NCBI GenBank assembly: GCA_016788885.1
Contig: JAEURX010000025.1
Span: 62,001-126,000, forward strand
From: Nitrospira sp.
Lineage (GTDB): Bacteria > Nitrospirota > Nitrospiria > Nitrospirales > Nitrospiraceae
DNA: 64,000 nt
Direction of reading: 5' to 3'
Shown here: piece after piece, positions 2,017 through 64,000 of the stretch
How positions within the stretch are numbered: the first letter of the stretch is position 1
Layout: each line of letters begins with the position of its first letter
The notes under the pieces: model-generated
Told to the model about the DNA's origin: nothing
The model's input: the letters and a program-made list of their open reading frames with translations, nothing else
Databases searched by the model: none
Translations under genes and position numbers: made by a program

Positions 2017-2049
2017 CGGATCGGGAACACCGACCTCGCAAAGGGCGCC

Positions 2050-3962: not shown

Positions 3963-4028
3963 ACCGATCCACACAAGGCTGCCGCTGCAGCCCGACACGG
4001 CACTGATGTTCTTGAAGGAGGCGCTTGC

Positions 4029-22390: not shown

Positions 22391-22772
22391 AAGGTCCTCC
22401 GCACAATCTCACCGGCATCGGCGATTTCCGCACGGGAACATCGCACGTGAGACGAGTTGTGGCGCGGCATTGACAGCCGAAGGGGCAACAGCCGTGCCAG
22501 AGTTCGCACACCAACCAGAAGCAGCACCGCCCGCTGAACATCTTCACCATCCACGTCTCGTCAGAGCCCACGACTGCGGAGAATTTCCGCAGCCCCCTGA
22601 TTCGGAACTGGCGCGAATGGCCACAGGCAGCGCGGGGCCCTGCGGGAGAATCCCCTTGACCGGCAGCCAAGGCTCCCGGCATCGGGCTTGCTCTCACTCC
22701 CTTAGCAGAAGATGTGTCCAACCCGTCGCGTCCGATGACCTCACTCCACCAAAACCAACGAAGGAGGGCCCC
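22391..22772. other. Intergenic region upstream of CBS gene
   Basis: 382 bases between divergent genes. Frames crossing it have no family features. The GGAGGG ribosome-binding site at 22763-22768 sets the CBS start. No operator or riboswitch-like structure recognised. Confidence 0.45.
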
Positions 22773-49367: not shown

Positions 49368-52106
49368 ATGCAACGTATCCGCCCCCGCCACATGCCGCCG
49401 CTTCGAGATGATGGGCCCGACGCGGGACACACCATCCTGAGCGATGGAACCACGGCCCTGTTGCGGATCGCGCAACCCGGCGACGCCGACGAGTTACAAC
49501 GCTTCGTCGAACGCCTGTCTCCGGCAGCCACACGCCATCGCTTCTTTTCAGAAACGGCGCCGCCCGCCGAGGTGATCCGTGCGCTCTGTGATGCGTCGCA
49601 ACCGCAACGGTGCCTGACGGTGCTCGTCCTCCGCCGCCAGGACGATGCGCTGCACATCATCGCCTCCGGCTCCTACCATGCACGAGGCCCGCATGAAGCA
49701 GAAGTGGCGATGGCCGTGGACGACCGGCTCCATGGGCATGGACTCGGCACCATCCTTCTCGAACGCCTGGCTCTGTTGGCCATTCGGCACGGATTCACCA
49801 AGCTCTGGGCCATCACCCATGCGGACAACCTGGCGATGCGCGAAGTGTTCGCCACGTCAGGCTTTACCATAGAAGAACATCTGGAGGGCGGCGACATGGA
49901 GGTCGAGTTGTCGCTGACACCGACCGATCAAAGCGTGCGGCAGTCGGAATGGCGCGAACGAGTTGCCACAACCGCTTCGCTGCGCCCCCTGTTCCATCCT
50001 CGCACCGTCGCCGTGGTCGGCGCCTCACGCTCCCCCCAGAGTATCGGCTACCGCATACTTGATGCGCTGCACAGCAACGGGTTTCGCGGGCACTGCTACG
50101 CGGTCAATCCGCATGCGTCGAAGATTGCCGATGTCGAAGCCTTTCCCTCACTCCGCGCCCTGCCTGAACCGGCCGATCTCGTCGTCATTGCCGTGCCGAA
50201 AGAAGCCGTTCTTTCCGTGGTAGACGACTGCGCGGCGACCGGAGTCCGCGCGTTGGTGGTCATCACCGCCGGATTCGCCGAAGTCGGAGAGGAAGGACGT
50301 CGTCTGCAAGCACAGCTGCTGGAGAAGGTACGGCAGCATGGTATGCGGATGGTCGGGCCAAACTGCTTCGGCATCCTGAATACAGACCCGGCCGTCAAAC
50401 TCAACGCCACCTTCACCTCCACATTTCCCCTCGCCGGCTCGATTGCGATGTCCTCTCAAAGCGGTGCCTTGGGGCTGGCCCTGCTCGCCGCTTCCGGGCG
50501 ATTGCACCTCGGGCTTTCGACCTTCGTCAGCGTCGGCAACAAAGCGGATGTCTCCGTGAACGACCTCCTGCAATATTGGGAGAGCGATTGCGCCACAACC
50601 GTCATCCTGTTGTACGTGGAATCGTTCGGCAACCCCAGACGGTTCGCCCACATCGCGCGGCGAGTCAGCCGCAACAAGCCCATCGTCGCACTCAAAGCGG
50701 GGCGGACAGCGTCCGGCAAACGTGCCGCGGGCTCGCACACTGCCGCGCTGGCCGCCAATGACGTCGCCGTTGAGGCATTGTTTCGGCAAACCGGCATCTT
50801 ACGCGCCGACACGCTGGAAGATATGTTTGCACTCGCGGGAGCCCTGTCGGAGCAGCCCTTACCGAAAGGCAACCGCGTCGGCATCCTGACCAATGCCGGC
50901 GGGCCCGCCATTCTCTGCGCGGATGCCTGTGAAGCGGCGGGGCTCGAGGTGCCGGAATTGTCTCAAGCCACAGTGACCAGACTCTCGCCTTTTCTTCCCA
51001 CCTCCGCCTCGTTGCACAATCCGGTCGATTTGATCGCCTCGGCAACCCCCGAGCAATACGAGCACGCCATCGTCACGCTGCTGAGCTCGGACGATATCGA
51101 CGCCTTGATCATTCTGTATATCGCGGTCACCAGCACGGATGTCGCCCCTATTGCGGAAGGTATTACTCGCGGCATTGCCGCTGTGCGGGCGGCTCAGCCG
51201 ATGAGGAAGCCGGTCCATATCGGATGGATGGTAGAATCCGACCGCGAACGTCGTTTCGCCCTGCCGACTGAAACCATTCCGACGTTCGGCCTCCCTGAAC
51301 TTCCTGCACGCGTCTTGGGAACCATCACCGACTATGTGCAATGGCGCGATCGCCCACTGGGGATGGTCCCCGATTTCGACGATCTGAACCTGCCGGCCGT
51401 GCAAACCATCTGCCGCGACGTGCTGGCCACGAGGGGAGGCGGCTGGTTGACGGTCTCGGAAACACGTGCGGTCTTGTCCGCAATGGCAATTGCACTGCCG
51501 CCCGGCGGAGTGGCGACAAGCGCCGAGGAAGCGGCTACGCTCGCTGCCCAGATCGGCTTTCCGGTCGCCGTGAAACTGGCTTCGCACACCCTCGTGCACA
51601 AAACCGAGATCGGCGGCGTCCATCTGAATCTCGCCAACAAGGCCGAGGTCCGACGCGCCTACGACGACATCGCCGCACGACTGGCCGAAGGCCGGCATCT
51701 GGACGCAATGGAAGGGGTGCTCGTCCAGCCGATGGTAAAGGATGGCGTCGAGGTGATGGCCGGCATGGTCCAAGATCCCTCCTTCGGCCCTTTGATTGGA
51801 TTCGGGCTGGGCGGGATACACGTCGAAATTCTCGGGGACGTGCGGTTCCGGATCACACCGTTGACGGAGCTGGACGCGGCGGACCTGATTCGGAGCATCA
51901 AGGGCTATCGTCTGCTACAAGGGTATCGCGGCCATCCGCCCGCAGACGTCGATGCCATCCAGGAACTGCTCCTGAGACTCTCGCGGTTGGTCGAAGAGGT
52001 GCCCGAAATCGTGGAACTCGATCTCAACCCCATCTTCGCCCTCGCACCGGGAGAAGGATACCGCATCGTCGATGCGAGGATCAGGGTAGCGGGAAAGAAC
52101 CCCTAA
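49368..52106 (+). CDS. GNAT acetyltransferase fused to ADP-forming acyl-CoA ligase (Pat-like)
   Basis: 912 residues. Residues ~22-182: GNAT domain with acetyl-CoA loop DDRLHGHGLGTILLERL. Then a CoA-binding domain (TVAVVGASRSPQSIGYRIL, ~212-300), a ligase-CoA domain with GSHTAALAAND where His457 sits at the phospho-His position of acyl-CoA ligases, and an ATP-grasp domain (~690-910, FPVAVKLASHTLVHKTEIGG). In Salmonella and E. coli, Pat/PatZ has the GNAT at the C-terminus and a dead ligase half; here the order is reversed and the ligase His is retained. Members acetylate Acs on its active-site Lys. Whether this one ligates acyl-CoA is open. Confidence 0.88.
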   Translation: MQRIRPRHMPPLRDDGPDAGHTILSDGTTALLRIAQPGDADELQRFVERLSPAATRHRFFSETAPPAEVIRALCDASQPQRCLTVLVLRRQDDALHIIASGSYHARGPHEAEVAMAVDDRLHGHGLGTILLERLALLAIRHGFTKLWAITHADNLAMREVFATSGFTIEEHLEGGDMEVELSLTPTDQSVRQSEWRERVATTASLRPLFHPRTVAVVGASRSPQSIGYRILDALHSNGFRGHCYAVNPHASKIADVEAFPSLRALPEPADLVVIAVPKEAVLSVVDDCAATGVRALVVITAGFAEVGEEGRRLQAQLLEKVRQHGMRMVGPNCFGILNTDPAVKLNATFTSTFPLAGSIAMSSQSGALGLALLAASGRLHLGLSTFVSVGNKADVSVNDLLQYWESDCATTVILLYVESFGNPRRFAHIARRVSRNKPIVALKAGRTASGKRAAGSHTAALAANDVAVEALFRQTGILRADTLEDMFALAGALSEQPLPKGNRVGILTNAGGPAILCADACEAAGLEVPELSQATVTRLSPFLPTSASLHNPVDLIASATPEQYEHAIVTLLSSDDIDALIILYIAVTSTDVAPIAEGITRGIAAVRAAQPMRKPVHIGWMVESDRERRFALPTETIPTFGLPELPARVLGTITDYVQWRDRPLGMVPDFDDLNLPAVQTICRDVLATRGGGWLTVSETRAVLSAMAIALPPGGVATSAEEAATLAAQIGFPVAVKLASHTLVHKTEIGGVHLNLANKAEVRRAYDDIAARLAEGRHLDAMEGVLVQPMVKDGVEVMAGMVQDPSFGPLIGFGLGGIHVEILGDVRFRITPLTELDAADLIRSIKGYRLLQGYRGHPPADVDAIQELLLRLSRLVEEVPEIVELDLNPIFALAPGEGYRIVDARIRVAGKNP

Positions 52107-52115: not shown

Positions 52116-52700
52116 TCACTCGGTGCTCGAAGTCGATTCAGGCTGCTCCCGGAGCTCCGTCACCTGCGCCGCGCAGTCGCCCGTGGGGGAGCCGCGATCG
52201 ACAGACTCCTTCTCCCACACCAGACGGCGCGCGCCGACATGCCTCAACAAACATTCAGCCGTCGCTAAGAGCTCCTGCACCTGACGAGCGGCCCCATCGG
52301 CGTAGTGCGCCAAATCGAAAATGGGAATCTGGAGACAGACCTCCGCGCGATTCTTGCGTTCCGGTGAAAATACGATGCGGTGGGCAGGCGGCTGCGGATG
52401 TTCGCAAGGCTTGAGCAGGTCGAGTGTCTGAAAGAACACCCGGCACAGGCGCTGTAAATCGCCGAGAATCGCCCGATGTTCCTCGTCGTCATTCAGCGGA
52501 AATTGGGCGGAATCTCTAAAGGCCCCGTACAGATTGAGCTGAAACCCGATCTGGACGATCCGTCCGTCGCCCATCTTGACAAAAAACGGGTCATGGTCGA
52601 AGCAGACCTTGCGCTGCGCAATCATGTCACGGAGCGACTGCTCACTCGAAAAGGCCTGCTCAAGATGCAGCTGCATGGACCTCTGCTTACCTTCGGTCAC
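52116..52700 (-). CDS. Conserved hypothetical cytoplasmic protein
   Basis: 194 residues, no signal or membrane segment. A predicted mixed fold with RKVCFDHDPFFVKMGDGRIVQIGFQLNLYG, followed by FQTLDLLKPCEHPQPPAHRIVF. The start overlaps the pentahaem cytochrome stop by 4 bases, so it is translationally coupled as the last gene of a ten-gene operon (58651-52116). It is convergent with the GNAT-ligase gene, 9 bases apart. Not recognised; possibly a regulatory or assembly protein for the upstream redox enzymes. Confidence 0.7.
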   Translation of the reverse strand: MTEGKQRSMQLHLEQAFSSEQSLRDMIAQRKVCFDHDPFFVKMGDGRIVQIGFQLNLYGAFRDSAQFPLNDDEEHRAILGDLQRLCRVFFQTLDLLKPCEHPQPPAHRIVFSPERKNRAEVCLQIPIFDLAHYADGAARQVQELLATAECLLRHVGARRLVWEKESVDRGSPTGDCAAQVTELREQPESTSSTE

Positions 52701-53251
52701 GGCCCGCCTCCGCCATGACAGGAGAGGCAGTCCCCCATTCGGCCCGGTTGATGTGCGCCTCGCCCTTTTTCATACAACCGCCGCACAATGAGCTCGTCTT
52801 TCAGCGTCACCTTCGTCGCGACCCGTGTGCCGAACGCATGGCAGGCGGTGCAGGAGCCGGCGCCCGTCGCGCGAAACACCAGATCGCCATGGGGATTCAT
52901 CCTGGTCTCTTCGGTAATGTGAGCCAAGGCCCCGCGATGTTCCGTATGGCACCCGGTACAAGCTGTCTGTCGAACAGCCAGATCGCGATGCCAGATGGAG
53001 ACCGCCGGAGTCGCACGACTCTCAAAATACCCTTCTGAGTGGCAACGCACACAGCGGGTCGCGCTCGGTCCACCAAACGGCGCATGGCAGTTCGTGCAAC
53101 CGGCGGTATCGACATGATACCGGCTGAGGTCGCCCGGAGCCCAGAACGCGGCGGGACTCCGCTCGGTTCCCCACCCCACCCAGATCATCAACACGAGGGT
53201 CGTCAAGGCCACCGCCGGAATCGCTGTTCTCGGAAGCGGGAGGTATCGCAT
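52697..53251 (-). CDS. Membrane-anchored pentahaem cytochrome c
   Basis: 184 residues. One N-terminal hydrophobic segment (~10-27, signal or anchor), then five CxxCH haem motifs: C52-H56, C67-H71, C98-H102, C134-H138, C175-H179. The region MNPHGDLVFRATGAGSCTACH is echoed in the dihaem protein at 53873-54259 (NPHSDLIFRATGATTCLDCH), so the two share a module. It lies 3 bases after the membrane cytochrome b gene; periplasmic face of the inner membrane. Likely takes electrons from, or gives them to, the b-type cytochrome. Confidence 0.88.
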   Translation of the reverse strand: MRYLPLPRTAIPAVALTTLVLMIWVGWGTERSPAAFWAPGDLSRYHVDTAGCTNCHAPFGGPSATRCVRCHSEGYFESRATPAVSIWHRDLAVRQTACTGCHTEHRGALAHITEETRMNPHGDLVFRATGAGSCTACHAFGTRVATKVTLKDELIVRRLYEKGRGAHQPGRMGDCLSCHGGGGP

Positions 53252-53254
53252 GAC

Positions 53255-53842
53255 TCATGAGATTCCGGCAAAGAACAATGCCCCCACCACATGCAGGAGG
53301 GCGAAGACCAGAAACATCAGCGTCATCGGTGCATGAATCGCCTGCCAAAGACGAAATGCCTCTTCCTGGGAAGCCATCCCATGCAACTGCGCGTCGATGT
53401 CGTTTTCGGACATTCCCTGATGTTGGAGGAGGTGGCGCTGCTCGTTGAGCGTCCTGAGGCTCGCGGCGTGCACCAACTGTCCCACGATTCCACTGACGAC
53501 TACGACGACCATGGACACCATGGCCAGGATCGGCACCACCGCATGGTAATGGGCGCCGGAATGAATAAAAATCAGCAGTGGCCCTATGACGCCTGCCACC
53601 ATGTGGACTCGAAACCATGCGCGCGGCCAGCGACGCGTGGGACTGGCTCGCTTTCGAAACGGATACACGAACACCAACAGCGTGACAGCCAGTCCTGCCC
53701 AGCCGACTCCATGCCCGTACCCGGTATGGCCGAATGGGGTGACCTTGTCGAGACTGAGCAGCGCCTCAAAGGCCAACGCACCGACCACCGCACCGACTGT
53801 CGCCGCGACGACCGCGATGAGACGCCACCGCACGCCCATCAT
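53255..53842 (-). CDS. Integral membrane dihaem cytochrome b-like protein
   Basis: 195 residues with about five membrane helices. Two helices carry His pairs at 14-residue spacing: H80/H94 (RVHMVAG...IFIHSGAH) and H170/H184 (AIHAPMTL...LLHVVG). This is the bis-His, two-haem-b arrangement of ferric reductase/YedZ-type transmembrane cytochromes. His39, His44, His97, His99, His100 and others are also present. Probably moves electrons across the inner membrane between quinone or ferredoxin-linked donors and periplasmic c-haems encoded on both sides. It sits between the dihaem c and pentahaem c genes (30 and 3 bases). Confidence 0.75.
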   Translation of the reverse strand: MMGVRWRLIAVVAATVGAVVGALAFEALLSLDKVTPFGHTGYGHGVGWAGLAVTLLVFVYPFRKRASPTRRWPRAWFRVHMVAGVIGPLLIFIHSGAHYHAVVPILAMVSMVVVVVSGIVGQLVHAASLRTLNEQRHLLQHQGMSENDIDAQLHGMASQEEAFRLWQAIHAPMTLMFLVFALLHVVGALFFAGIS

Positions 53843-53872
53843 GTCCGCCGTCCGTTCTTCATCAGCCCGTGA

Positions 53873-54259
53873 TTACTTTCGGTACCGCTCAACTCCCTTA
53901 CTGCCGCCGGCATGACAGCGCAAACAGTCCGCAAATCTGCCTGGCCCGTGAATACCTTTCGCCTTGGCCCTCAGGGCCTGCACCAATTCGTTGTCCTGCA
54001 CCTGCGCCAGCATCAGGCCGTCTTTTCCGGCCCGGTGACAATCCAGGCAGGTGGTCGCGCCGGTCGCACGAAAAATGAGATCACTGTGGGGGTTCGCCGC
54101 CATGCCGTTCGATTCGGCGATCAGCCACCCCGTCGCCTCTCCCTCCGAGTGCGAGGCTTCACCGGATCGACCGGGAAAGGATGTCGCCTCCCGAGGCGCT
54201 GCAACCACACAGAGCAGCCCCAGTAGACAACCGAACCGAACGACCCCACGGCCCGTCAT
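53873..54259 (-). CDS. Periplasmic dihaem cytochrome c
   Basis: 128 residues from ATG 54259, which overlaps the hemerythrin stop by 4 bases (the longer frame to 54277 is not needed). A signal-like N-terminus (MTGRGVVRFGCLLGLLCVVA) precedes two haem sites, C71-H75 (CLDCH) and C112-H116 (CLRCH). The sequence around both matches the last two haems of the pentahaem protein, including NPHSDLIFRATGA and GPGRFADCLRCHAGG, so it is a sub-module duplicate. Exported; probable electron shuttle in the operon. Confidence 0.87.
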   Translation of the reverse strand: MTGRGVVRFGCLLGLLCVVAAPREATSFPGRSGEASHSEGEATGWLIAESNGMAANPHSDLIFRATGATTCLDCHRAGKDGLMLAQVQDNELVQALRAKAKGIHGPGRFADCLRCHAGGSKGVERYRK

Positions 54260-54738
54260 GACTGCCCGCTCCCGCAACAGGTTCGATACCGCTCTTCCGG
54301 GATCTCCTTCATGGCCTGATAGAGTTCCACCCGCTCCGCCTCGCTGATGACTTGATCGATCGACGGGTAGAGAATCCGTTCCTCCTTCATGTTATGTGAT
54401 GTCAGGATCTCCACCAACCGCTGCTCCTCCCGATCGCTCTCGGGGTTCTGTTGCTGAACTTTGTCATGGATGGCCTCCAGGCATTGGCCGATCATCTGAT
54501 GCTCGGTACGCATGACCTGCGTCGGGCCGCCTTCCGCCATGCCGGAGTTTTCCTCCCACTTGGGAAACAACACATCTTCCTCCCACACGATATGTCGCTG
54601 CAGGCCATACTTGAACTCGACGAAGGCGTCCTTCGCCTTGGCGAAATCTGTCCGCTTCAGTTGCTGGAAGGTATTGAAGAGTGCATCCAACCGGTCATGA
54701 TCCTGCTCAAACGTCACACTGATTTTTTCGTTCGACAT
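54256..54738 (-). CDS. Hemerythrin-domain protein
   Basis: 160 residues from ATG 54738 (AAGGAGC ribosome-binding site). The four-helix diiron motif is complete: H14 (EQDHDRLD), H49-x3-E53 (HIVWEED), H80 (RTEHQMIG) and H115-x4-E120 or E119 (SHNMKEER). Hemerythrin domains bind O2 or sense NO/O2, or store iron. The C-terminus CCGSGQS adds two adjacent Cys that could respond to redox or attach a group. No signal, so it is cytoplasmic. It lies between a cytochrome c' lipoprotein gene and the dihaem c gene in an OFOR operon, which suggests O2 protection or sensing for the O2-sensitive oxidoreductase. Confidence 0.87.
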   Translation of the reverse strand: MSNEKISVTFEQDHDRLDALFNTFQQLKRTDFAKAKDAFVEFKYGLQRHIVWEEDVLFPKWEENSGMAEGGPTQVMRTEHQMIGQCLEAIHDKVQQQNPESDREEQRLVEILTSHNMKEERILYPSIDQVISEAERVELYQAMKEIPEERYRTCCGSGQS

Positions 54739-54752
54739 GCCTTGCTCCTTGG

Positions 54753-55241
54753 TTATGAATGACGAAGTTTGTATTCCAAATGACACGCCACACAGGCCTT
54801 GAGCACAGTGTTGAACTGAGGCAGGATCTGCTTCAGATCCTGGGTCGGCATCACCTCGGCCAGCTTCTCGGCAGCCGCATGATGCGCCATCGCGAGATCG
54901 TGATAGGCCGGCGGAAAGTCAGCCGGTTCCTGCCTGGCCATGGCGTACCGATGCATAAAGAATCCCAGATGTGATTCCGTCAGCCCCTGCGCCAACCGAT
55001 AGTCTTCGTCGGCCAGGGCCGCCACGATCGCTTGAATCGTTTCCAAATGTTGGAGCATCACAGCGCGATGTTCCTGTCGCGCCTCCGCCTCGAGCGGAAT
55101 GGGCGTGCGTACATCCGGCAGATGCACCGGCGTCACACCGCGCGCAGACGAGGTGTGCTGCTCCACGCAGCCGGTCATGAGACCCACTACCACAACCATG
55201 CAGGCCAGCCCAGCCCGCGCCCGCAATCGCCGCCGACTCAT
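54753..55241 (-). CDS. Cytochrome c'-like lipoprotein
   Basis: 162 residues from ATG 55241 (ATGA overlap with OFOR beta stop). Signal MSRRRLRARAGLACMVVVVG with lipobox LMTGC (Cys25). The mature part is a helical bundle ending in a C-terminal haem motif C150-x2-C153-H154 (CVACHLEYKLR), the place expected for cytochrome c'/c556. Such proteins bind NO or CO or relay electrons with the fifth ligand only. Lipid anchored in a membrane, periplasm side. Confidence 0.8.
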   Translation of the reverse strand: MSRRRLRARAGLACMVVVVGLMTGCVEQHTSSARGVTPVHLPDVRTPIPLEAEARQEHRAVMLQHLETIQAIVAALADEDYRLAQGLTESHLGFFMHRYAMARQEPADFPPAYHDLAMAHHAAAEKLAEVMPTQDLKQILPQFNTVLKACVACHLEYKLRHS

Positions 55242-56176
55242 GCCTGCTCCTGTGTCGCCTGTTGCCAATAACGGTCCACGCCCTCTTGAATGTGGCGAAT
55301 GGTGTCCGCTTGCAGGGTCGGCTCGAACAGATGTCGGAAGCGTCCCTGCAGTTGCAGATACGCCTCCACCGGCTTGCGCTTCGGGATGTACGTGTGGGTA
55401 ATCGTCCCGTTGACGGCTTCCTTCAGCGGCCAGAGCCCGGTCTCAACGGCTAACTTAGCCACCTCCGGCGTGGCTCCCGGATCATACAACCAGCCGGTCG
55501 GACAGGCGGAGAGGGCGAGAAACATTTTCGGCCCGGTGAACGCGGCGGCCCGCGCAAACTTTTCCTCCAAGTCTAACGGATACCGTGGGGCGACCGTCGC
55601 AATGTACGGAGGCCGATGCGCCCGCCAAATCTCAAAGATGTCCTTCTTCTCCTGAACCGTCGCGGCAGGATGATGCAGACTGCAGGGTGACGTCGCCGTC
55701 CGCGCAGCATAGGGAGTAGCCGGGGACAGCTGCATACCGGTGTTGCCGTACGCTTCGTTGTCGTAACAGATGTAATAAAAGTCGAGCGTGCGATGCATCG
55801 CTCCGGAGGTCGACGACAAGGCCATATCGTACGTGGAGCCGTCGCCGCCCAGCACGACGACTTTGAGATCCTCGCTCTTCGGCAGCCGTCCCTTGGCGAT
55901 CAACACATCCAACGCATCGCGAATGCCCTGTGCACCGGCCGGCGCCGAGCCCATGGTCGTATACATCCACGATCCCTTGAATGAGCTAAAAGGATAGGCC
56001 GCCAACATGGTGAAACAGCCGGCGGCATTCACATAGACGACCTGGTCGCCCAGCACCTTCGCCGCGAGCCGCAAGGCTTCCAGCCCCCCGCACCCGGCGC
56101 ACAAGGCCGTTCCCGGCAGCACATGCTCCTCACGTGGAATCTGCTTGATCTTCTTGAACGTCTCACGTTGCCACAT
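55238..56176 (-). CDS. 2-oxoacid:ferredoxin oxidoreductase, beta subunit
   Basis: 312 residues from ATG 56176; a GTG at 56197 is possible but lacks a ribosome-binding site. Binds thiamine diphosphate: LGGDGSTYDMAL (109-120) and YDNEAYGNTGMQ. Cys26, Cys29 (LCAGCGG) and Cys54 (NAAGCF) match [4Fe-4S] ligands of pyruvate:ferredoxin oxidoreductase beta subunits. It pairs with the alpha and gamma-delta subunits just upstream. The reaction interconverts a 2-oxoacid (likely pyruvate) with acyl-CoA plus CO2, using ferredoxin; reversible and central to the reductive TCA cycle. Confidence 0.92.
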   Translation of the reverse strand: MWQRETFKKIKQIPREEHVLPGTALCAGCGGLEALRLAAKVLGDQVVYVNAAGCFTMLAAYPFSSFKGSWMYTTMGSAPAGAQGIRDALDVLIAKGRLPKSEDLKVVVLGGDGSTYDMALSSTSGAMHRTLDFYYICYDNEAYGNTGMQLSPATPYAARTATSPCSLHHPAATVQEKKDIFEIWRAHRPPYIATVAPRYPLDLEEKFARAAAFTGPKMFLALSACPTGWLYDPGATPEVAKLAVETGLWPLKEAVNGTITHTYIPKRKPVEAYLQLQGRFRHLFEPTLQADTIRHIQEGVDRYWQQATQEQA

Positions 56177-56200
56177 GGCCGCTCTCGTCTTCTTCACGTA

Positions 56201-57439
56201 TTACGTGTTGCGTTTCCCGTTTCCAGCCGCAACCAGCTGCAACTGCGTCATCTCTCGATGTTCGTCGGCACTGTACAGCAAGACCGGGGCGCCGACGGTT
56301 CCGCGGACTCCTGCCTCTGCCGTCTGATCGAAAACGGCCTGGAATTCGCCTTCGGACAGATTCTGACCGCCTAACCCGCCGACGAAGGAGCACAGTGCCC
56401 GGGGTCGCGCGGACTCATGATACAAACAGGCCGCGATTTCCTGGAAGAGAATCCCACCCTGCCCCGGCGCCAGATTCTGGTCCAACACAGCCACGGCCCG
56501 TCGCCCGCGTAAGGCCTGTCGAATAGCCTCAGCCGGCCAGGGGCGAATCACCCGCAACCGAAGCAACCCCACTCGCCTCCCCTTGGCTCTGGCAGCGTCG
56601 ACCGCCGCCTTGCCTGCGCTTGCGCCCGAGTTCGTCATCACAAGCACATCTTCCGCATCATCCAACCGGTAACCTTCGAGCAGATCATAGCGTCGACCGA
56701 ACAGTGCGTGGAACGAGTCCGCAGCTTCCTGATGCACCTCAAGTGCATTCTGTGCCGCCAAATGCACTTGATGCCGGAAGTATGCGTACGGCGTGCCGCC
56801 GATCACGGCCACGCCCAACGCATGCGGAGACGAGGCCGTGAAGCCAAGATGGGAGGGGCGGAAGGGAGGCAGAAACTGTCGCACCCTGTTCGGATCAGGA
56901 AGGCTCACCGGCTCGCGGGTAAACGACAGCGTAAACCCGTCCAGATTCACGATGACCGGCAACATCACGCGTTCATCTTCGGCAATCTTGTACGCCATCA
57001 AGATCGAATCCAACACCTCCTGGCAGGTCTCCGCATGAATCTGCAGAAACCCGGAATCCCGCGCGGCCAAGACGTCATTATGATCAGACTCCAACGTAAT
57101 CGGAGCGGCCAAGGCCCGCGAGACATTCACCAGCACGAGCGGTGCGCGCCAGCCCGAGATCGAGTAGAGCACTTCGAACGCGTGAAGCAAGCCTTGACTA
57201 GATGTGGCGGTAAACACGCGCGCGCCGGTGACTTCCGCGGCACCGGCTGCCGTCATCATCGAGTGCTCGGAGTCCATACTCACGAATCGCGCCGCCAACT
57301 CACCGCGTTCGCACCACGCGGCCAAGGCTTCCACGATTTCCGTCTGCGGGGTAATGGGAAATGCCGGAATATAATCTACGTCCGCCAACCTGGCTCCCCA
57401 CGCGGCGGCCAGGTTCCCGGTCATCATGTGGCTGTCCAT
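56201..57439 (-). CDS. 2-oxoacid:ferredoxin oxidoreductase, alpha subunit
   Basis: 412 residues from ATG 57439; the longer frame to 57646 lies inside the gamma-delta gene and is rejected. Domain I begins MMTGNLAAAWGARLADVDYIPAFPITPQTEIVEAL, with FVSMDSEHSMMTAAGAAEVTGARV, and ends with the CoA-binding region VLDQNLAPGQGG. Together with the beta subunit it forms the ThDP active site. It overlaps the gamma-delta gene by 16 bases, so the subunits are coupled. Cytoplasmic. Pyruvate or 2-oxoglutarate cannot be told apart from the sequence alone. Confidence 0.92.
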   Translation of the reverse strand: MDSHMMTGNLAAAWGARLADVDYIPAFPITPQTEIVEALAAWCERGELAARFVSMDSEHSMMTAAGAAEVTGARVFTATSSQGLLHAFEVLYSISGWRAPLVLVNVSRALAAPITLESDHNDVLAARDSGFLQIHAETCQEVLDSILMAYKIAEDERVMLPVIVNLDGFTLSFTREPVSLPDPNRVRQFLPPFRPSHLGFTASSPHALGVAVIGGTPYAYFRHQVHLAAQNALEVHQEAADSFHALFGRRYDLLEGYRLDDAEDVLVMTNSGASAGKAAVDAARAKGRRVGLLRLRVIRPWPAEAIRQALRGRRAVAVLDQNLAPGQGGILFQEIAACLYHESARPRALCSFVGGLGGQNLSEGEFQAVFDQTAEAGVRGTVGAPVLLYSADEHREMTQLQLVAAGNGKRNT

Positions 57440-58341
57440 GCCACCCCGCCTTCCTTCTCCCGCTCCGCAACCAATGCGTGAGTCGGGCATTCGTGCACGC
57501 AGATCTGACACCCTTTGCAATGGGCATAGTCCACAACCGGATGATCTTCCCGGTTCATGGCAATCACCCCGTCCGGACAATAGGCAAAACACAACCAACA
57601 CCCATTGCACTTGTCTGCGATCAACACTGGTCGAAACGTTCGCCACCCGCCGGTTTCGCGCAACACCGAATTTCCGGCCGCGCTGATTCTGGCTGTGCCT
57701 TTCGTCGGCGGTTCATAGGTCGGCGTGTGCAGGGGAGACACGCCACCGGCCCGGTCGCTACACGATGCCAGCACGGCCGGCTCAACCGAGTCATAACACA
57801 CCCGTGCGAGTGTGAGATTCCGCTCGATCACTGCCCCAGCCACACCGAGATCGGCCAGCTCCCGGCTGATCGCGGACTGGAGAGGTTTCCACTCCAGCCC
57901 TACAAGCTTGGCTGCCACGGCGCCGAGCAACGCACTGATCGCCTCACGCTGCCCCAATTGTTCCAATGCCATCCCTGTCACATCCCGCGTGCTCACCTGC
58001 GTAGGCAAGAACCGATGGGCGCGTACTGCTTCGCTACTCAACGACGAGTTGACGAACAGGACCGTCTGCTCGGTCATCCCTTCTACGACATGCGCCCCGG
58101 CATCGTCCAGCAATGAGGCCTCCGCCACGACGATGACATCCGGATGGGCGATCGGCCCCCGCTCCCGGATCGGCTCCCGACCGAAGCGCGTGAACGCAGC
58201 AACCGGCGCCCCTCGCCGTTCAGCCCCATAGATCGGGGAATCCTGAGCCACATATCCGCTCACAAACGCCGCAGTGCCAAGAATGCGACTGGCCGTCTTG
58301 GCGCCTTGCCCGCCACGCCCGTGAAAGCGTACTGCCACCAT
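57424..58341 (-). CDS. 2-oxoacid:ferredoxin oxidoreductase, fused gamma-delta subunit
   Basis: 305 residues from ATG 58341. Residues 1-~180 are the gamma domain (VRFHGRGGQGAKTASRILGTAAF, DSPIYGAERRGAPV). Residues ~240-300 are a two-cluster ferredoxin (delta) with C245, C248, C251, C255 and C275, C278, C281, C285 (CNGCWLCFAYCP and CKGCQICVHECP). A fused gamma-delta chain is known in PorCD-type enzymes. The two [4Fe-4S] clusters carry electrons to or from free ferredoxin. GAG lies before the start; it is 1 base after the YtxH stop. Confidence 0.92.
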   Translation of the reverse strand: MVAVRFHGRGGQGAKTASRILGTAAFVSGYVAQDSPIYGAERRGAPVAAFTRFGREPIRERGPIAHPDVIVVAEASLLDDAGAHVVEGMTEQTVLFVNSSLSSEAVRAHRFLPTQVSTRDVTGMALEQLGQREAISALLGAVAAKLVGLEWKPLQSAISRELADLGVAGAVIERNLTLARVCYDSVEPAVLASCSDRAGGVSPLHTPTYEPPTKGTARISAAGNSVLRETGGWRTFRPVLIADKCNGCWLCFAYCPDGVIAMNREDHPVVDYAHCKGCQICVHECPTHALVAEREKEGGVAWTAT

Positions 58342-58342
58342 C

Positions 58343-58651
58343 TCAGGCTCGATCCGCCCGCTCCTTCTTGAATGCGTCTTTCCCCGCCGCCAATGCAGCG
58401 GCAATCGTCGCTTCCGTCTCTCGCAGATACTGTTTGGCCTCATCCACGGTCTCGGAGATGTCTTTTCGGATCTCCCGGGCCTTCTCCAACATCTCCTCTT
58501 CCGTGCGGCGCGCATACCCACGCAATGCCGTACGCGTCTCTTCTCCGGACCTGGGCGCATAGAGAATGGCTGCTACCGCACCGAGAACGGCTCCACTCAG
58601 AAACGCGATCGACACCCCCACCCCCGAACAATTCCCACTCTGATCGGCCAT
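58343..58651 (-). CDS. YtxH-domain small membrane protein
   Basis: 102 residues from ATG 58651 with GGAAGGAG ribosome-binding site; the longer frame to 58924 has no support. One hydrophobic helix (VGVSIAFLSGAVLGAVAAILYAP) with the APRSGEETR motif typical of YtxH proteins, then a charged coiled-coil tail (EEEMLEKAREIRKDISETV). YtxH proteins are general-stress proteins of Gram-positives and others. Here it heads the OFOR operon, with the alpha-helical tail on the cytoplasmic side, which could tether the complex to the membrane; inferred. Confidence 0.85.
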   Translation of the reverse strand: MADQSGNCSGVGVSIAFLSGAVLGAVAAILYAPRSGEETRTALRGYARRTEEEMLEKAREIRKDISETVDEAKQYLRETEATIAAALAAGKDAFKKERADRA

Positions 58652-59006
58652 GGTGATCTCTCCTTCCCGGTTAAAAACATGAGCTCGGGCATGCGCCTTC
58701 ACTTGGTCTTTGTCCAAAGCAGAGGGCGTGCCAGGCCCTGCCGTGTGAACCTTGGGCAAGTGACTGCTTTGGCGAGGATTTTCCGGGATACGCTCGGCCG
58801 CATAGGCGTCCTGTGATGGGACTGGGGAATTCCAGAACCGCGCAGAAGCCGCACTGTCGCAAAACGCATCAGGGCACAATGAGCGTCGCCGGCCGTCCCG
58901 CTCGCGCTGATCGGACGACGGCACTGCATCTCATGGTGCTGTGAGCTGGAAGGTCAGGTGAAGAGGACGGCAGAGCAAGCACGGTGGGTGGAGCGGCAGG
59001 GCGCAA
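58652..59006. other. Intergenic region upstream of the OFOR operon
   Basis: 355 bases between the cytochrome gene (59007) and YtxH. Open frames cross it but none has a ribosome-binding site and family match. It should hold the operon promoter. No clear sigma-factor motif or operator palindrome was found. Confidence 0.45.
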
Positions 59007-59582
59007 TCACTCCTTTTCAGGAGCCGGAGGTGTTTGCGGCACGGCAGGCGCATCCTCGTCTTGGTCCATGTGGTCGGAGCCTCGGGAGTCCCGCCTTCCA
59101 CCATGCCCCATCGGGCCGCGCCCTCGCATGCCGTGATGACGTCGGAAGGTCCGTGTGTATTGAATAATCGCCCAGATCTCTTCATCCGTCAGTTGGTCGG
59201 CAAAGCCGACCATGCTGGTGCCGGGCGATCCATACTTGATCACCCAGAAGATTTCGCCTTCCGTACGGTGGCGCCAGAAGCCATGATGCTGGAAGTTCCG
59301 GGGCGCCGGATTGAGCTGCGCCGCGAGCGGCCCATGGCCATCACCCTCCTGACCATGACAATTGATGCAGGTGCCTTTGCCCGCATAGAGCGCGTTGCCC
59401 TTGTCGATCGTCTGGGGCGAATCCGGCAAGGGACTCCTCAACGCTTGGGCTTCGGCCAGTTTATCGGCCGAAACACGCGGCCTCATCACATCATGTCCGG
59501 CTGCCCACGCATCGGATACGCCACAGAGCAGCGCGAGACACAACACCCCCCACAGCGTGCGGCTTGGTTTTCCCTTTGCCAT
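59007..59582 (-). CDS. Exported monohaem cytochrome c with Met/His-rich tail
   Basis: 191 residues from ATG 59582. Signal MAKGKPSRTLWGVLCLALLC with cleavage near AWA-AGH. Haem site C72-C75-H76 (CINCHGQEGDGHG), axial Met likely in SPGTSMVGFADQLTDEEIW. This class I cytochrome has the NFQHHGFWRHRTEGEIFWVI segment also seen in the last domain of the tetrahaem protein at 61207 (FWIIKNGSPGTGMMSFA). The tail RRHHGMRGRGPMGHGGRRD is His/Met/Arg-rich and could bind copper. Periplasmic. Confidence 0.87.
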   Translation of the reverse strand: MAKGKPSRTLWGVLCLALLCGVSDAWAAGHDVMRPRVSADKLAEAQALRSPLPDSPQTIDKGNALYAGKGTCINCHGQEGDGHGPLAAQLNPAPRNFQHHGFWRHRTEGEIFWVIKYGSPGTSMVGFADQLTDEEIWAIIQYTRTFRRHHGMRGRGPMGHGGRRDSRGSDHMDQDEDAPAVPQTPPAPEKE

Positions 59583-59634
59583 GTTCGTACCCTGCTGATG
59601 GATGGGCCCAGTTCCCCTTGCCCTGTCGCCACGG

Positions 59635-60687
59635 TCAGAAATCCAGCTCGGCCATCTTCCGATGGAACCGCGTGATGACATTGGGATCCGGCGTGAGTCG
59701 AATCTGCGCCTCGTCCTTCCCCTTGTACGGCAGCAAATTCAGCACATACCGCAGACTTTCCAAACGAGCCGCCTGCTTGTCGTTCGCCTTCACGATGATC
59801 CAAGGACTGAAGGTCGTATGCGTCTTGCCGAACATCTCTTCCTTATATCGAGTGTACGAATCCCACATCTCCTGCGCCTTTTCATCGACCGGGCTCAGCT
59901 TCCACTGTTTGAGCGGATTCTGCCGGCGCGCCTCAAAACGCTTCGCCTGCTCCTCCTTGGAAATCGAGAACCAGAACTTGATGATGGTGACACCGTCTTC
60001 GTACAACATGTGTTCGAATTCCGTGACCTGCTGCAGGAATCGCTGGTGCTCCTTCTTGCTGCAGAATCCCATGACCGGCTCCACCACCGCCCGGTTGTAC
60101 CAACTCCGGTCGAAGAAGACGATTTCGCCTTTGTTGGGCAATTGCCGGATGTAGCGCTGAAAATACCATTGCCCTCGCTCATCGTCCGTTGGCTTCGGCA
60201 GGGCCACCACCCGCATCGCTCGCGGGTTCAGGTGTTCGGTGAACCGACGGATTGTGCCGCCCTTTCCGGCCGCATCGCGCCCTTCCACGAGAATCGCAAT
60301 GCGCTGACCATCGGCCTGCACCCACCGTTGCAACCGCACCAACTCTACCTGTAACTGCCGCAACTCCTGCTCATAGAGCAGGGTCTTGCGCACGTCTTCC
60401 AGATCGATGCTCTTGCTCTTGATCAGCTGAATGAGCCCCCGACGCGTATTGACCCGGCGGAGGTCCTCCTCGCTCAAGATCCGTCCTGCTTCCCCGATAA
60501 GCCCCGCCGCCATGGCGCCGCCGGGATCACGTGCCGTTTCATAGCCGTCCCCTGCAAGCGGCACGGCGGTAGGAATCACCTCCAGGTCGTCGTCCAAATC
60601 GTTGTCTCCGAGCACAACCCCTGGCTCCTCCGGCTCGCGCTCTTTGCGGCCCTTGGCTTTTCCGTTTGTTGGTCCCTCTGCGGCCAT
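59635..60687 (-). CDS. ppk2: Polyphosphate kinase 2
   Basis: 350 residues from ATG 60687 (GGGGGG upstream); a start at 60708 is possible. A charged N-terminal extension (~90 residues) precedes the PPK2 P-loop-kinase core: VEGRDAAGKGGTIRRFTEHL (Walker A), VFFDRSWYNRAVVEPVMGF (Walker B), and a lid with Arg residues (RRQNPLKQWKLSP). PPK2 uses polyphosphate to phosphorylate nucleotides. It fits a low-energy lifestyle. It lies 52 bases before the cytochrome gene and 27 bases after DsrE. Confidence 0.93.
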   Translation of the reverse strand: MAAEGPTNGKAKGRKEREPEEPGVVLGDNDLDDDLEVIPTAVPLAGDGYETARDPGGAMAAGLIGEAGRILSEEDLRRVNTRRGLIQLIKSKSIDLEDVRKTLLYEQELRQLQVELVRLQRWVQADGQRIAILVEGRDAAGKGGTIRRFTEHLNPRAMRVVALPKPTDDERGQWYFQRYIRQLPNKGEIVFFDRSWYNRAVVEPVMGFCSKKEHQRFLQQVTEFEHMLYEDGVTIIKFWFSISKEEQAKRFEARRQNPLKQWKLSPVDEKAQEMWDSYTRYKEEMFGKTHTTFSPWIIVKANDKQAARLESLRYVLNLLPYKGKDEAQIRLTPDPNVITRFHRKMAELDF

Positions 60688-60714
60688 GCGCCCCCCTTGT
60701 TTCTTCATACCGGA

Positions 60715-61074
60715 CTAGAACGCCACGTTTCGATCACGTTCGGCTACGGCCTTGATGTAATCCGGCATGCCCTTGATCGATGCACCGGCGACGAGATCCG
60801 TCCCATTGATTTGACGAGCAACGGCACAGGCTCCGCAGACCCAGATCGGAACCTGCGCGGCCTGCACCGCGGCCAACACCTCTTTCAAAGGACTCAGATT
60901 CACGCCGATCACATGGTCGGCCGTGCCCTTGCGCCCCAACGTCACGGCTTCGTTCCACAGCCACAACACCACATCGTGCCCCTGCTCCTTGGCCGTCTTC
61001 GCCGCCATGAACGGTAAGCTCGCCATGGTCGGATCGTCTGTGCCACGACTGCCGGAAATGATAAATGTCGCCAC
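60715..61074 (-). CDS. DsrE-family protein
   Basis: 119 residues. MATFIISGSRGTDDPTMASL is the DsrE/F-like nucleotide-binding-type start; VWLWNEAVTLGRKG-type segment and the Cys pair in IWVCGACAVARQIN are typical of DsrE/YchN proteins. These cytoplasmic proteins move sulfur in persulfide form. Cys80 and Cys83 are close to the conserved position, so sulfur transfer is possible. Its location between tetrahaem c and PPK2 genes, near a sulfite-oxidase-type enzyme, hints at sulfur chemistry. Confidence 0.82.
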   Translation of the reverse strand: MATFIISGSRGTDDPTMASLPFMAAKTAKEQGHDVVLWLWNEAVTLGRKGTADHVIGVNLSPLKEVLAAVQAAQVPIWVCGACAVARQINGTDLVAGASIKGMPDYIKAVAERDRNVAF

Positions 61075-61206
61075 TCACAACCTCCCTCGTTCGTCTCTCG
61101 TCCGTAAAGATACGAGCTGATGGCCGATAGCGTATGCCTGAGATCGAAGACACGGTACCCGGCCTCTTCCTCGCGCCATACGCGTCGGCCATCGGCCCTA
61201 TTCATT

Positions 61207-62616
61207 TCACTTCGCCAGACTTCTCACATAGGCAATCAACTGCCACACCTGCTCATCCGGCAATGCGGCAAACGACATCATGCCGGTTCCAGGCGACCCG
61301 TTTTTGATGATCCAGAACAGTTGCCCATCGGGCAAGTCCTTCATCGTCGAGCCGCAGGTAAAGTTGCGAGGCGGTGGAATCAACGCCGCGCCCATGAAGC
61401 CCTGGCCGTTGCCTTTCTCGCCATGGCACATGGCGCAGGCCACCGGCTGTGCCGTCTGCAGAAAGAGTGTCTTCCCCGACTGAATCATGGCATCCGAGCT
61501 CGGCAAGGGATTGGTCTTCGACAGAAATTCTGGCGGCGCCTTCGCCGTCTTTCTCGGCTGTGGACAGACCCCAGAGGCCCCGCCTCCCACCGACGCCTGA
61601 GCCTGATCAGGTCCGCCCTTGAAGGTGGCCTTCAAATACGCCATCACATCCGCCACGCCCTGCTGCCCGATCGTCAGCCCCCAGTACGGCATGTTCGGCG
61701 ACTTCCCCATCGCGGCGCCGCCATGATTAATGACGTTGTACAGATAATCCGTCGGCAATTTCTCGAAGGGAATGTTCGCGTGCACGGCCGGCTTCGGATT
61801 CAAGCCGGAAGCCGCCGGACCATCACCCTTGCCGGTCGCCCCGTGGCATTGCGAACAATATTCTTTGTAGAGCACTTTCCCGCGATCCACGCTGGCCAGA
61901 CCGAACTCAGGCGCCGTCCACGGTTCGTAATATTTGAAGTCCTTCACACCCTGCACCATGAGAAACCCAATCACCGCTCGCAGCTGCGGCTCCGTCGCAT
62001 CGGCCAGGAATTCGCCGCTGTGCGGCACAAAGTCCTGCGGATTCAGTCCGAACCGGAACAGCCAGTCCTTGTCATACCGCTGCCCTGCCGCCGCCAGGGA
62101 TGCACTCTGCGGACCACCGATGAGCGCCCCGTTCTCCTCGATGAGGTGACACCCGAGGCAGGCATGCGCCTTATACGCGATACCTCCGAACGTCGCATCG
62201 AATTTGCTGACCTTGGCGAGATCGAATGCACCGACCGTCACCCGCGGGTCCTTGTTGTGTTGTTGAAAGTAGTCGGCAATCGCCGCCGCTTCGTCGTCAC
62301 CGACCACAGGATGCCGCATCGGTCCTTCGGCAAGGTCCCACCGATACCCCTTCGGATACAGAGGGGCCTCTTTTCCCGTCAGATAGCGAAGCAGCCAGGC
62401 ACGCTGATACTTACTCCCAGCCCAAATCAAATCGGGGGCCTTGAGATTGAATCGCGAATCGGCTTTTCCCTCCAGTCGATGACAACCCGCACAATTGGTT
62501 TGAATCAGATCTTTCACATGGCTTTGCTCGCTGCCCAGCAACAGGCGCGGGAAAGACATCAAGGCCATGACAAAGACCAGCGCACACCCGACCGTCACTA
62601 TCCGTCGTCGCCCCAT
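61207..62616 (-). CDS. Tetrahaem c-type cytochrome
   Basis: 469 residues with a signal-like N-terminus (MGRRRIVTVGCALVFVMALM). Four haem motifs: C42-H46 (CAGCH), C153-H157 (CLGCH), C254-H258 (CSQCH) and C394-H398 (CAMCH). Each lies in its own class I cytochrome-like unit; the protein is a chain of monohaem domains. The last unit resembles the protein at 59007. It is the third gene downstream of a sulfite-oxidase-type enzyme and probably passes electrons toward a terminal oxidase. The product is periplasmic or membrane anchored. Confidence 0.9.
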   Translation of the reverse strand: MGRRRIVTVGCALVFVMALMSFPRLLLGSEQSHVKDLIQTNCAGCHRLEGKADSRFNLKAPDLIWAGSKYQRAWLLRYLTGKEAPLYPKGYRWDLAEGPMRHPVVGDDEAAAIADYFQQHNKDPRVTVGAFDLAKVSKFDATFGGIAYKAHACLGCHLIEENGALIGGPQSASLAAAGQRYDKDWLFRFGLNPQDFVPHSGEFLADATEPQLRAVIGFLMVQGVKDFKYYEPWTAPEFGLASVDRGKVLYKEYCSQCHGATGKGDGPAASGLNPKPAVHANIPFEKLPTDYLYNVINHGGAAMGKSPNMPYWGLTIGQQGVADVMAYLKATFKGGPDQAQASVGGGASGVCPQPRKTAKAPPEFLSKTNPLPSSDAMIQSGKTLFLQTAQPVACAMCHGEKGNGQGFMGAALIPPPRNFTCGSTMKDLPDGQLFWIIKNGSPGTGMMSFAALPDEQVWQLIAYVRSLAK

Positions 62617-62652
62617 GAGGCACCCCTTTCGTTCACGTATCCAATTGCGCGG

Positions 62653-63282
62653 TTATCGCGTGGCCAGCCACGCGTGAATATCCGCGATGTCTTGATGGCT
62701 CAGCACCGCCCCCCAGGCCGGCATCGGACCTCGACCATGGAGCACGGTTTCCCAAAACGCCCCGTCATTCTTGAGAATCAGGTTCCGCGCCAGTTTCGGC
62801 CCCACGCCGCCGACCGCCCCTTCTCCATGGCAGGCCTGACAGTTGTGTGCATACAGTCCCGCGCCGCGCGTGGGAACGCCGGTCAACGGCTCTTCGTTCG
62901 TCGCCTGCGGCCCAGCCGGCGGCGTAGTCATCGCCAACTCTTGCTCGATGGTCGGCAAGTGATCCGATGCTCCGGGATGATTGCGCGCAGTCACATACTG
63001 GAGGACCAGTGCGGTCTCCTCCTTGGACAGTTCGGCGCCCCAATGGACCATCTTCTCCACGGTGGCAATCCAGCGTTCTTCCGGCAGCCGTTGCTGTGAA
63101 ATGAGATCGGTCGTGTGGCAGACGGCGCATCGGGCCATGATCAAGGTTGCGGCCCGTCGAGACTGAGGAGTGGGAAGCGATGGTCGCTCATCCTCCTGCG
63201 CTGCGGTGATGACGACCAGACCAAGCATGACAGACAGCAGAGAGAGCAGTACGAGGAAGGAACCGTGTCGTGACCTGCTCAT
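62653..63282 (-). CDS. Dihaem cytochrome c
   Basis: 209 residues from ATG 63282, with ATGA overlap of the molybdoenzyme stop (63279). Signal (MSRSRHGSFLVLLSLLSVML) then haem motifs C52-H56 (CAVCH) and C148-H152 (CQACH). The pairing of a sulfite-oxidase-fold Mo enzyme with a cytochrome c, SorA with SorB, is well known in bacteria; here the partner is dihaem rather than monohaem. Probably takes electrons from the molybdoenzyme. Confidence 0.88.
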   Translation of the reverse strand: MSRSRHGSFLVLLSLLSVMLGLVVITAAQEDERPSLPTPQSRRAATLIMARCAVCHTTDLISQQRLPEERWIATVEKMVHWGAELSKEETALVLQYVTARNHPGASDHLPTIEQELAMTTPPAGPQATNEEPLTGVPTRGAGLYAHNCQACHGEGAVGGVGPKLARNLILKNDGAFWETVLHGRGPMPAWGAVLSHQDIADIHAWLATR

Positions 63283-64000
63283 GCCGCCACCGTCACCGCC
63301 ACGCGGTCCCATCCACTCCACAAAAATCCTCCGGGATTCCACGAACTGGTTGCCGGCTGTTGTTCACCCCGTGCATCCGTGGCGCGGCAGAGCAGAGCCG
63401 TGGGGCCGACCGTCCTGGGAGTCCACACATATTGCCACTGCCGCCAGGCATAGGGTTGTCCCTCTCCGAGTAACCGGGCTTGCTCCCAGGTCTTTCCGTC
63501 ATCACAGGATACTTCGACGTGCGCCACGGCGAACTCACCGGCCCAGGCTACCCCTTGAACGGTCACGGGTCCTTTCCTCACCGTATCACCCTCACCCGGC
63601 GCGGCGATCAGCGACTTCACCGGCATCTGTTCGACCGGCACCATCACGGTCCCCGGCAATCCGGATCCCGGCTGGATCGATGTCTCCGGCATGCGATAGG
63701 CCTGCTGCATATAGTAGCCGGGTGTTTCATCGGCCCGTACCGTGAGCTCCGTCAACCATTTCATGCAGGATTCCGCCATCCAACCTGGAGTGATGACCCG
63801 GAGCGGCGCACCATGCAAGAGCGGCAACGGACGACCATTCATTTCAAAGGCGAGGAGCGTATCGGGATGAAGCGCCTTGGCGATGGGAATACTTCTCGTG
63901 AACAGAGGCACGGTAGGAAGAGCGGGACGATCGGCGCCCTGCATCTGAACGTGGACGCCCTGGGGTTTCACACCGGCGCGCTCCAGCACATCGCGCAACC
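63279..64000 (-). CDS. Sulfite-oxidase-family molybdoenzyme, C-terminal part (truncated by window edge)
   Basis: About 240 residues of the C-terminal region; the frame is open to the right edge. It contains the end of the Mo-cofactor domain (LLHGAPLRVITPGWMAESCMKW) and the dimerisation domain (VTVQGVAWAGEFAVAHVEVS, WRQWQYVWTPRTVGPTALLC). This is the SUOX/SorA pattern of periplasmic sulfite dehydrogenases, but nitrate-reductase-like and other members share it, and the substrate is not proved. The catalytic Cys lies outside the window. It is co-directional and coupled with dihaem and tetrahaem cytochrome genes. Confidence 0.82.
   Translation of the reverse strand, partial: LRDVLERAGVKPQGVHVQMQGADRPALPTVPLFTRSIPIAKALHPDTLLAFEMNGRPLPLLHGAPLRVITPGWMAESCMKWLTELTVRADETPGYYMQQAYRMPETSIQPGSGLPGTVMVPVEQMPVKSLIAAPGEGDTVRKGPVTVQGVAWAGEFAVAHVEVSCDDGKTWEQARLLGEGQPYAWRQWQYVWTPRTVGPTALLCRATDARGEQQPATSSWNPGGFLWSGWDRVAVTVAA

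Follow-up and report, generated by a model that had tools for sequence, protein, structure and literature searches.

Members of the genus Nitrospira fix CO2 by means of oxygen-sensitive enzymes, yet live by oxidising nitrite aerobically, and their handling of swings in oxygen and redox state is an open question. A ten-gene operon in the 64,000-nucleotide stretch of a Nitrospira genome analysed here ('the window'; positions 62,001 to 126,000 of contig JAEURX010000025.1) joins a 2-oxoacid:ferredoxin oxidoreductase (OFOR) to a hemerythrin-like di-iron protein, a cytochrome c'-like lipoprotein, a membrane cytochrome b and two multihaem c-type cytochromes. What, then, holds such a combination together? 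An earlier note on this DNA had suggested either a dedicated membrane pathway or complex, or an oxidoreductase protected from O2. The answer favoured here, which is considered probable though by no means secure, is a sigma-54-controlled operon for low oxygen or redox stress, in which a pyruvate:ferredoxin oxidoreductase (POR)-type enzyme, proteins that protect Fe-S clusters or deal with nitric oxide (NO), and a transmembrane b-c electron conduit would act as separable modules in response to one condition, of which low oxygen, nitrosative or redox stress is the likeliest. Gene order, its conservation, the separability of the modules, the ligand residues and the shared promoter architecture were all computed in this analysis; the inducing signal, the activator and a single physiological task for the modules are what we infer from them.

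Operon layout and the predicted shared promoter

The ten genes lie in a row on the minus strand, from 58651 to 52116; all ten reading frames are genuine and follow the order previously described, with neighbours spaced by 30 bases or less at all nine junctions. In the direction of transcription these are a gap of 1 bp (YtxH/gamma-delta), an overlap of 16 bp (gamma-delta/alpha), a gap of 24 bp (alpha/beta), an overlap of 4 bp (beta/c'-like), a gap of 14 bp (c'-like/hemerythrin), an overlap of 4 bp (hemerythrin/dihaem c), gaps of 30 bp (dihaem c/cytochrome b) and 3 bp (cytochrome b/pentahaem c), and a final overlap of 4 bp (pentahaem c/unknown). Two of the three overlaps that had been reported as ATGA do read so, but the third, at the pentahaem c/unknown junction, reads GTGA. 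The family assignments (YtxH, POR gamma with 2[4Fe-4S], POR_N/PFOR_II, TPP_enzyme_C, Cytochrom_C_2, Hemerythrin, and two and five CxxCH motifs) agree with Pfam and NCBIfam. The leading gene, encoding a YtxH-like protein (58343..58651, minus strand; PF12732, 52.1 bits), is the first behind the promoter in most genera.

Upstream of YtxH, on the same strand, lies a predicted sigma-54 (-24/-12) promoter element, TGGCACGCCCTCTGCT (58718..58733), which is identical or one base off in all genomes of the genus that were checked. Some 125-141 bp further upstream, a palindromic, activator-like element, TGATGCGTTTTGCGACA (58855..58871), is conserved across genera with the family consensus TG..GC-N5-GC..CA (in most relatives as the perfect palindrome TGGCGCGTTTTGCGCCA), and in its own genome this site gives the only zero-mismatch match. 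A second conserved block, GGTTCTGGAATTCCCCA (58823..58840), stands between the two, as revealed by a phylogenetic footprint over 12 genomes of the genus. The conserved pair of the genus (TGGCACG[CT]CCTCTGCT together with the perfect palindrome) displays the GG-N10-GC of a sigma-54 promoter in a TGGCAC-N5-TTGC context, with -12 variants CTGC, TCGC and TGGC, and the upstream activator site that such a promoter uses. Nearly all genomes of the genus that were checked have it ahead of the operon, as do most other genera, where the elements are degenerate but their positions are kept. RpoN is encoded in the genome, and the strict sigma-54 pattern also picks out pilin and flagellar genes, which are typical sigma-54 targets; a scan for sigma-70 promoters and terminators returned nothing above chance. 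When pairs of a sigma-54 element and a palindrome spaced 120-149 bp apart were scored, 40 unique pairs were found in 1.6 Mb of a sequence set that is enriched for the operon locus, against 2 in a reversed control. Newly recognised at this locus is a predicted sigma-54 promoter, conserved across genera, whose upstream element is palindromic.

The same pair appears where the genes have come apart. In two genomes (G060 and G218) the OFOR is unlinked from the genes for the hemerythrin, cytochrome b and pentahaem c, and both loci carry the pair; another locus of the latter three genes (L131) carries it as well, and in G153, where an insertion splits the operon, the part with the c'-like protein and hemerythrin has a pair of its own. 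Since the pair stands at both loci where the modules are unlinked, the OFOR and the cytochrome/hemerythrin modules are probably co-regulated, and this shared promoter offers the best evidence that they serve one condition. The proposal that these genes form one operon is upheld, and co-regulation of the modules is indicated by a promoter that is shared even where they are unlinked.

Conservation and separability of the modules

The comparison rests on a search of 246 Nitrospirota genomes for the cytochrome b, the OFOR alpha subunit and the hemerythrin, of which about 50 regions were read. About 15 Nitrospira genomes share the full gene order, among them that of Ca. N. defluvii with its complete chromosome (FP929003.1), and this recurrence across the genus goes far beyond chance; the earlier note had made its case depend on other genomes keeping these genes together, and they do so within the genus and in one or two sister lineages. 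An orthologous OFOR (alpha subunit at least 76% identical) is present in 22 Nitrospiraceae genomes of the sample, and behind it lie the c'-like gene in 18 of the 22, the hemerythrin in 16, one or the other in 20, and the cytochrome b in nine. At the more distant OFOR loci of other families, none of these partners was found in any of the seven read. The suggested tie between the OFOR and the other genes consequently stands for the c'-like protein and hemerythrin, but the joint occurrence of OFOR and cytochromes is not general beyond the genus and those few sister groups.

Either module can also be missing. Four genomes of the genus (G112, G115, G121 and G245), and a further locus, L122, from a close relative of G121, have no OFOR and keep the series YtxH, (c'-like protein), hemerythrin, dihaem c, cytochrome b and pentahaem c. 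In a tree of the hemerythrin, cytochrome b and pentahaem c these five fall into about four separate lineages (some nodes being poorly supported), so that the simplest history is one in which the OFOR was lost and the other genes were retained. The reverse is seen in G224, which has lost the cytochrome b and pentahaem c and kept the OFOR, c'-like protein, hemerythrin, dihaem c and the tenth gene. A genome-wide scan uncovered further cytochrome b-pentahaem c pairs without an OFOR of the window's type alongside, in Nitrospirales, in Methylococcaceae (L135, L140 and L149) and in Nitrosomonas communis (L136, where the c protein is shortened). In the methanotroph locus L135 the pair begins 4 bp behind an FAD-linked oxidase, and elsewhere it is mostly alone. 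Such a distribution, in which OFOR and cytochrome module repeatedly occur without each other, does not support the single complex or dedicated pathway once proposed, and suggests instead separable modules under one regulatory signal.

The insertion mentioned above occurs in two genomes of different genera (G129 and G153), where four genes lie at the same point between OFOR beta and the c'-like gene (L039:3334-6926 and L101:10944-14537). Their lengths had suggested a NuoEF-type electron-transfer partner, an idea rejected once their sequences proved to be those of arsenic genes (ArsM-, ArsC-, ArsD- and ArsA-like).

The oxidoreductase, its companions and the cytochromes

The first module would be a third, POR-type OFOR of this genome. 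Its three genes encode a gamma-delta fusion (57424..58341, minus strand; PF01558 at 97 bits, with a 2[4Fe-4S] ferredoxin (Fer4) domain, and TIGR02175 and TIGR02179 above cut-off), an alpha subunit (56201..57439, minus strand; PF01855, PF17147; PorA_Arch, 383 bits) and a beta subunit that binds thiamine diphosphate and a 4Fe-4S cluster (55238..56176, minus strand; PF02775; PorB, 260 bits; cysteine motifs kept in an alignment to chain C of 9bt4). The domain set of a four-subunit-type POR is hence complete (POR_N and PFOR_II in alpha, TPP_enzyme_C in beta, POR in gamma, 2[4Fe-4S] in delta), with delta fused to gamma. The best scores of alpha and beta are to archaeal PorA and PorB, at values below the NCBIfam equivalog cut-offs for both, and the nearest solved structures are the Pyrococcus-type POR 9bt4 and then the Moorella oxalate oxidoreductase (5c4i). 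The domain content and these scores bear out the earlier description of an OFOR, of the POR type, and the reaction is probably the interconversion of pyruvate with acetyl-CoA, CO2 and reduced ferredoxin; the pointers to pyruvate are indirect, namely the closeness to PorA and PorB and the gene order OFOR-ACD-ACS in G034. The enzyme shares the alpha, beta, gamma and delta domains of the Pyrococcus/Thermotoga-type POR, but carries gamma and delta in one chain and occurs in a nitrite oxidiser beside cytochromes; with the oxalate oxidoreductase it shares a gamma-delta-type single chain, but it scores lower to that enzyme than to POR, and falls well short of the equivalog cut-offs for oxalate oxidoreductase. 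The genome's two further OFORs (C38 and C52, taken here as its reductive tricarboxylic acid cycle enzymes, and so as the O2-tolerant five-subunit ForDABGE type) were compared with it for close similarity, and none was found, the alpha subunit being 27-30% identical to theirs. The chromosome of N. defluvii, a model organism, likewise carries an OFOR of a different type from its other two.

A third POR in N. marina is strongly upregulated at low O2, in a response whose upregulated clusters adjoin UspA genes, and has been reported to be missing from Nitrospira other than Ca. N. alkalitolerans (PMC8115632). Like the window enzyme it is a third OFOR beside two five-subunit enzymes, but it is described with a separate gamma subunit and a 4Fe-4S protein, whereas the window type is fused and is present in N. 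defluvii (FP929003.1). Identity of the two was accordingly rejected on published distribution and gene architecture, that is, on the paper's description rather than on sequence. A POR that does resemble the N. marina description lies at L143:13643-19059 (separate gamma, alpha and beta, and a GltD-like protein, beside a Usp gene), about 3 kb from a cytochrome b-pentahaem c pair; it is 35-40% identical to the window OFOR.

Convergent with the operon is a gene for an ADP-forming acyl-CoA synthetase fused to a GNAT domain (49368..52106, plus strand; PF13549, PF13607, PF13380, GNAT), in which the SHTAAL histidine motif is kept. It adjoins the OFOR in many genera, and in G034 a synthetase follows the OFOR in the same direction (gene order OFOR-ACD-ACS). 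It is a candidate partner for acetyl-CoA, from which it could generate ATP; alternatively, it could function as a protein acetyltransferase.

The second module would serve protection. The hemerythrin-like protein (54256..54738, minus strand; PF01814) is a single domain whose only relative in the PDB, and best match there, is the Fe-S cluster repair protein YtfE (RIC). An alignment of relatives identified its conserved di-iron ligands as four His and two Glu (H14, H49, E53, H80, H115 and E119). The YtfE ligands, which we take to be H84, H129, E133, H160, H204 and E208, have equivalents in H49, E53 and H80 by alignment and in H14, H115 and E119 by motif. The five-His site of an O2 carrier is absent, helix 3 carrying one conserved His (H80) and no second four residues on. 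An O2-binding hemerythrin, as had been supposed, is therefore not supported, the conserved ligands being of the YtfE/RIC type. The protein differs from full-length YtfE/RIC in its length of 160 residues, in having no N-terminal domain and in scoring below the NCBIfam equivalog cut-offs (46 bits against 254, and 45 against 204.7). From the cytoplasm it may guard or repair Fe-S clusters.

A precedent is provided by Campylobacter jejuni, in which hemerythrins shield Por and Oor from oxidative damage; one of them, HerA, has the properties of a classical mu-oxo di-iron hemerythrin and showed no repair of clusters (PMC4257069). In both cases a single-domain hemerythrin is tied to an OFOR, functionally for HerA and HerB and by operon here, but the window protein, unlike HerA, carries the YtfE-type ligand set. 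The precedent makes a protective role plausible. That role would extend beyond the OFOR: the hemerythrin is nearly universal in the family and the OFOR is present in about a third of it, so the former is not a dedicated guard of the latter. On the periplasmic side, the cytochrome c'-like lipoprotein (CPR; 54753..55241, minus strand) matches PF01322 with 30.3 bits against a cut-off of 26.5, by its C-terminal half only, and has its CxxCH (CVACH) at the C-terminal end. Across 14 relatives the CxxCH is invariant, and so is Met62, which might supply the sixth haem ligand, as happens in c-556, and renders a five-coordinate haem uncertain. By analogy with the c' and YtfE families, the lipoprotein may bind NO and the hemerythrin may have a role towards NO.

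These observations bear on the idea that the operon exists for the OFOR itself, as an efficient, O2-sensitive pyruvate synthase that would feed a reductive tricarboxylic acid cycle at low O2 as its companions keep O2 and NO away. The POR-type sequence, the presence of two more OFORs in the genome, the C. jejuni precedent and the N. marina analogue all speak in its favour; however, the hemerythrin, c'-like and cytochrome genes are retained in genomes that have no OFOR, and the OFOR may run in either direction; the neighbouring synthetase accords just as well with pyruvate being oxidised and ATP formed. The idea is thus rated as unlikely.

The third module comprises the cytochromes. The cytochrome b (53255..53842, minus strand) was identified as a five-helix, di-haem protein from family alignments and a predicted structure (mean predicted local distance difference test score, pLDDT, 84.9). 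The four histidines to which its haems had been assigned, H80, H94, H170 and H184, are indeed invariant or nearly so in the family, as is H98 (invariant), and form His-x13-His pairs on helices 3 and 5. A basic loop with seven Arg/Lys between residues 63 and 78 suggests that the N-terminus is inside, and so predicts an inner haem at H80/H170 and an outer haem at H94/H184; a di-haem membrane protein of this topology, in keeping with the original proposal, would carry electrons across the membrane. Its relatives are distant: the Pfam assignment (Ni_hydr_CYTB) is weak, the score to prokaryotic cytochrome b561 (PF01292) is 22.4 bits against a gathering cut-off of 30.1, a profile search of PDB sequences gave no match, and a Foldseek search of the model against the PDB gave none at E<0.001, the best plausible ones being cytochrome b6 (TM 0.46/0.41) and STEAP1. 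The protein thus shares with the b561 and b6 bundles a weak sequence similarity to the former, the His-x13-His spacing of cytochrome b/b6 and a weak fold likeness to b6, but differs in its score below the Pfam cut-off, its lack of a significant fold match, its five helices and its constant multihaem c partner.

That partner, a membrane-anchored, class III-like pentahaem cytochrome (52697..53251, minus strand; five CxxCH; PF02085, 29.3 bits), directly follows the cytochrome b in related loci. The dihaem cytochrome (53873..54259, minus strand; two CxxCH) is a copy of its last two haem domains (47% identity over 73 residues). The cytochrome b would exchange electrons, probably with quinone or a dehydrogenase, and with both c-type cytochromes outside; here, as for the OFOR, we infer the substrate, the partners and the direction of electron flow. 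In a wider superfamily, found in Nitrospirota and Betaproteobacteria, cytochrome b relatives of about 300 residues are paired with 24-haem c-type cytochromes (L059:7921-10648 and L153:9860-12556).

A dedicated membrane complex or pathway would go further: as a ferredoxin:cytochrome c oxidoreductase, it would pass electrons from OFOR-reduced ferredoxin, by way of the haem on the cytoplasmic side of cytochrome b, to the pentahaem c in the periplasm, or run in reverse for CO2 fixation. It would agree with the shared operon and its tight junctions, with one haem on each side of the membrane and with co-regulation of both modules even if unlinked. Nevertheless, either module is repeatedly lost with the other kept, and the cytochrome pair occurs without the OFOR in proteobacteria and Nitrospirales, once beside an FAD-linked dehydrogenase, which leaves such a complex rather improbable. 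Equally doubtful is its most novel form, in which the hemerythrin, dihaem c, cytochrome b and pentahaem c would constitute a new kind of transmembrane electron valve, with its own sigma-54 activator, through which nitrite oxidisers short of oxygen would couple the ferredoxin of a pyruvate-type OFOR to haems in the periplasm.

The tenth gene (52116..52700, minus strand) encodes a conserved protein without assigned function, present in part of the genus and, in G153, directly after the hemerythrin; it has no match in Pfam or NCBIfam, and its predicted structure is poor (pLDDT 45).

Weighing the proposed stress operon and its possible wider regulon

A loose stress island, in which a single sigma-54 promoter would drive unrelated genes that are not functional partners, would explain the mosaic presence of the modules and the abundance of Usp, CBS, Hsp20 and PPK2 genes nearby, but is very unlikely, as the same combination recurs behind this promoter at loci that lie apart, and has been maintained in several genera, where drift would not keep it.

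Several points also weigh against the favoured low-oxygen or redox-stress operon. Most of the genomes compared are metagenome-assembled; the contrast in occurrence between OFOR and hemerythrin within the family has been described above; and the promoter pair is missing from some OFOR loci, namely L104, L106 and the ones read in other families. Low oxygen is a presumed inducing signal, a literature search found no transcript, proteome or activity data for the operon (a search by N. defluvii locus tags being likewise empty), and the NtrC-type activator (C33) is a candidate drawn from an imperfect upstream match. What the favoured reading offers is a regulatory tie between an OFOR, a di-iron protein of the YtfE type and a di-haem b/pentahaem c pair that is as yet uncharacterised. 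As it comes with a defined promoter motif and a candidate regulator of the NtrC type, it makes the low-oxygen or redox-stress response of nitrite oxidisers directly testable by transcriptomics.

Similar elements occur elsewhere on the minus strand of the window. The same palindrome (TGCGGCGTTTTGCAGCA) lies at 9348-9364, with a weaker sigma-54-like element at about 9215-9231, ahead of an operon with CBS proteins; three genomes conserve the palindrome in front of a 171-residue protein without a Pfam match and of CBS-domain genes. At about 22484-22625 a palindrome (TGTGGCCATTCGCGCCA, about 22609-22625) and a sigma-54-like element (TGGCACGGCTGTTGCC) precede a 211-residue protein (21562-22197), also without a Pfam match. 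Beyond the operon, a gene set on the same strand (window 59007-64000 and L215, G000:C25:124000-138000) encodes a Rieske protein, cytochrome b/c, a molybdopterin oxidoreductase and several c cytochromes, then DsrE and PPK2; its start, a little beyond the window's edge, is preceded by a sigma-54 element and palindrome of the same type, and the set is conserved in L216.

The candidate regulator, which is offered as a lead only, is a sigma-54 activator of the NtrC type (C33), whose gene is followed by that of a multi-PAS histidine kinase (L213:4033-5412 and 1354-4014; L214:7418-8797) in both G000 and N. defluvii. The activator gene has a related palindrome upstream, and a second activator is encoded close by (L214:2446-3849).

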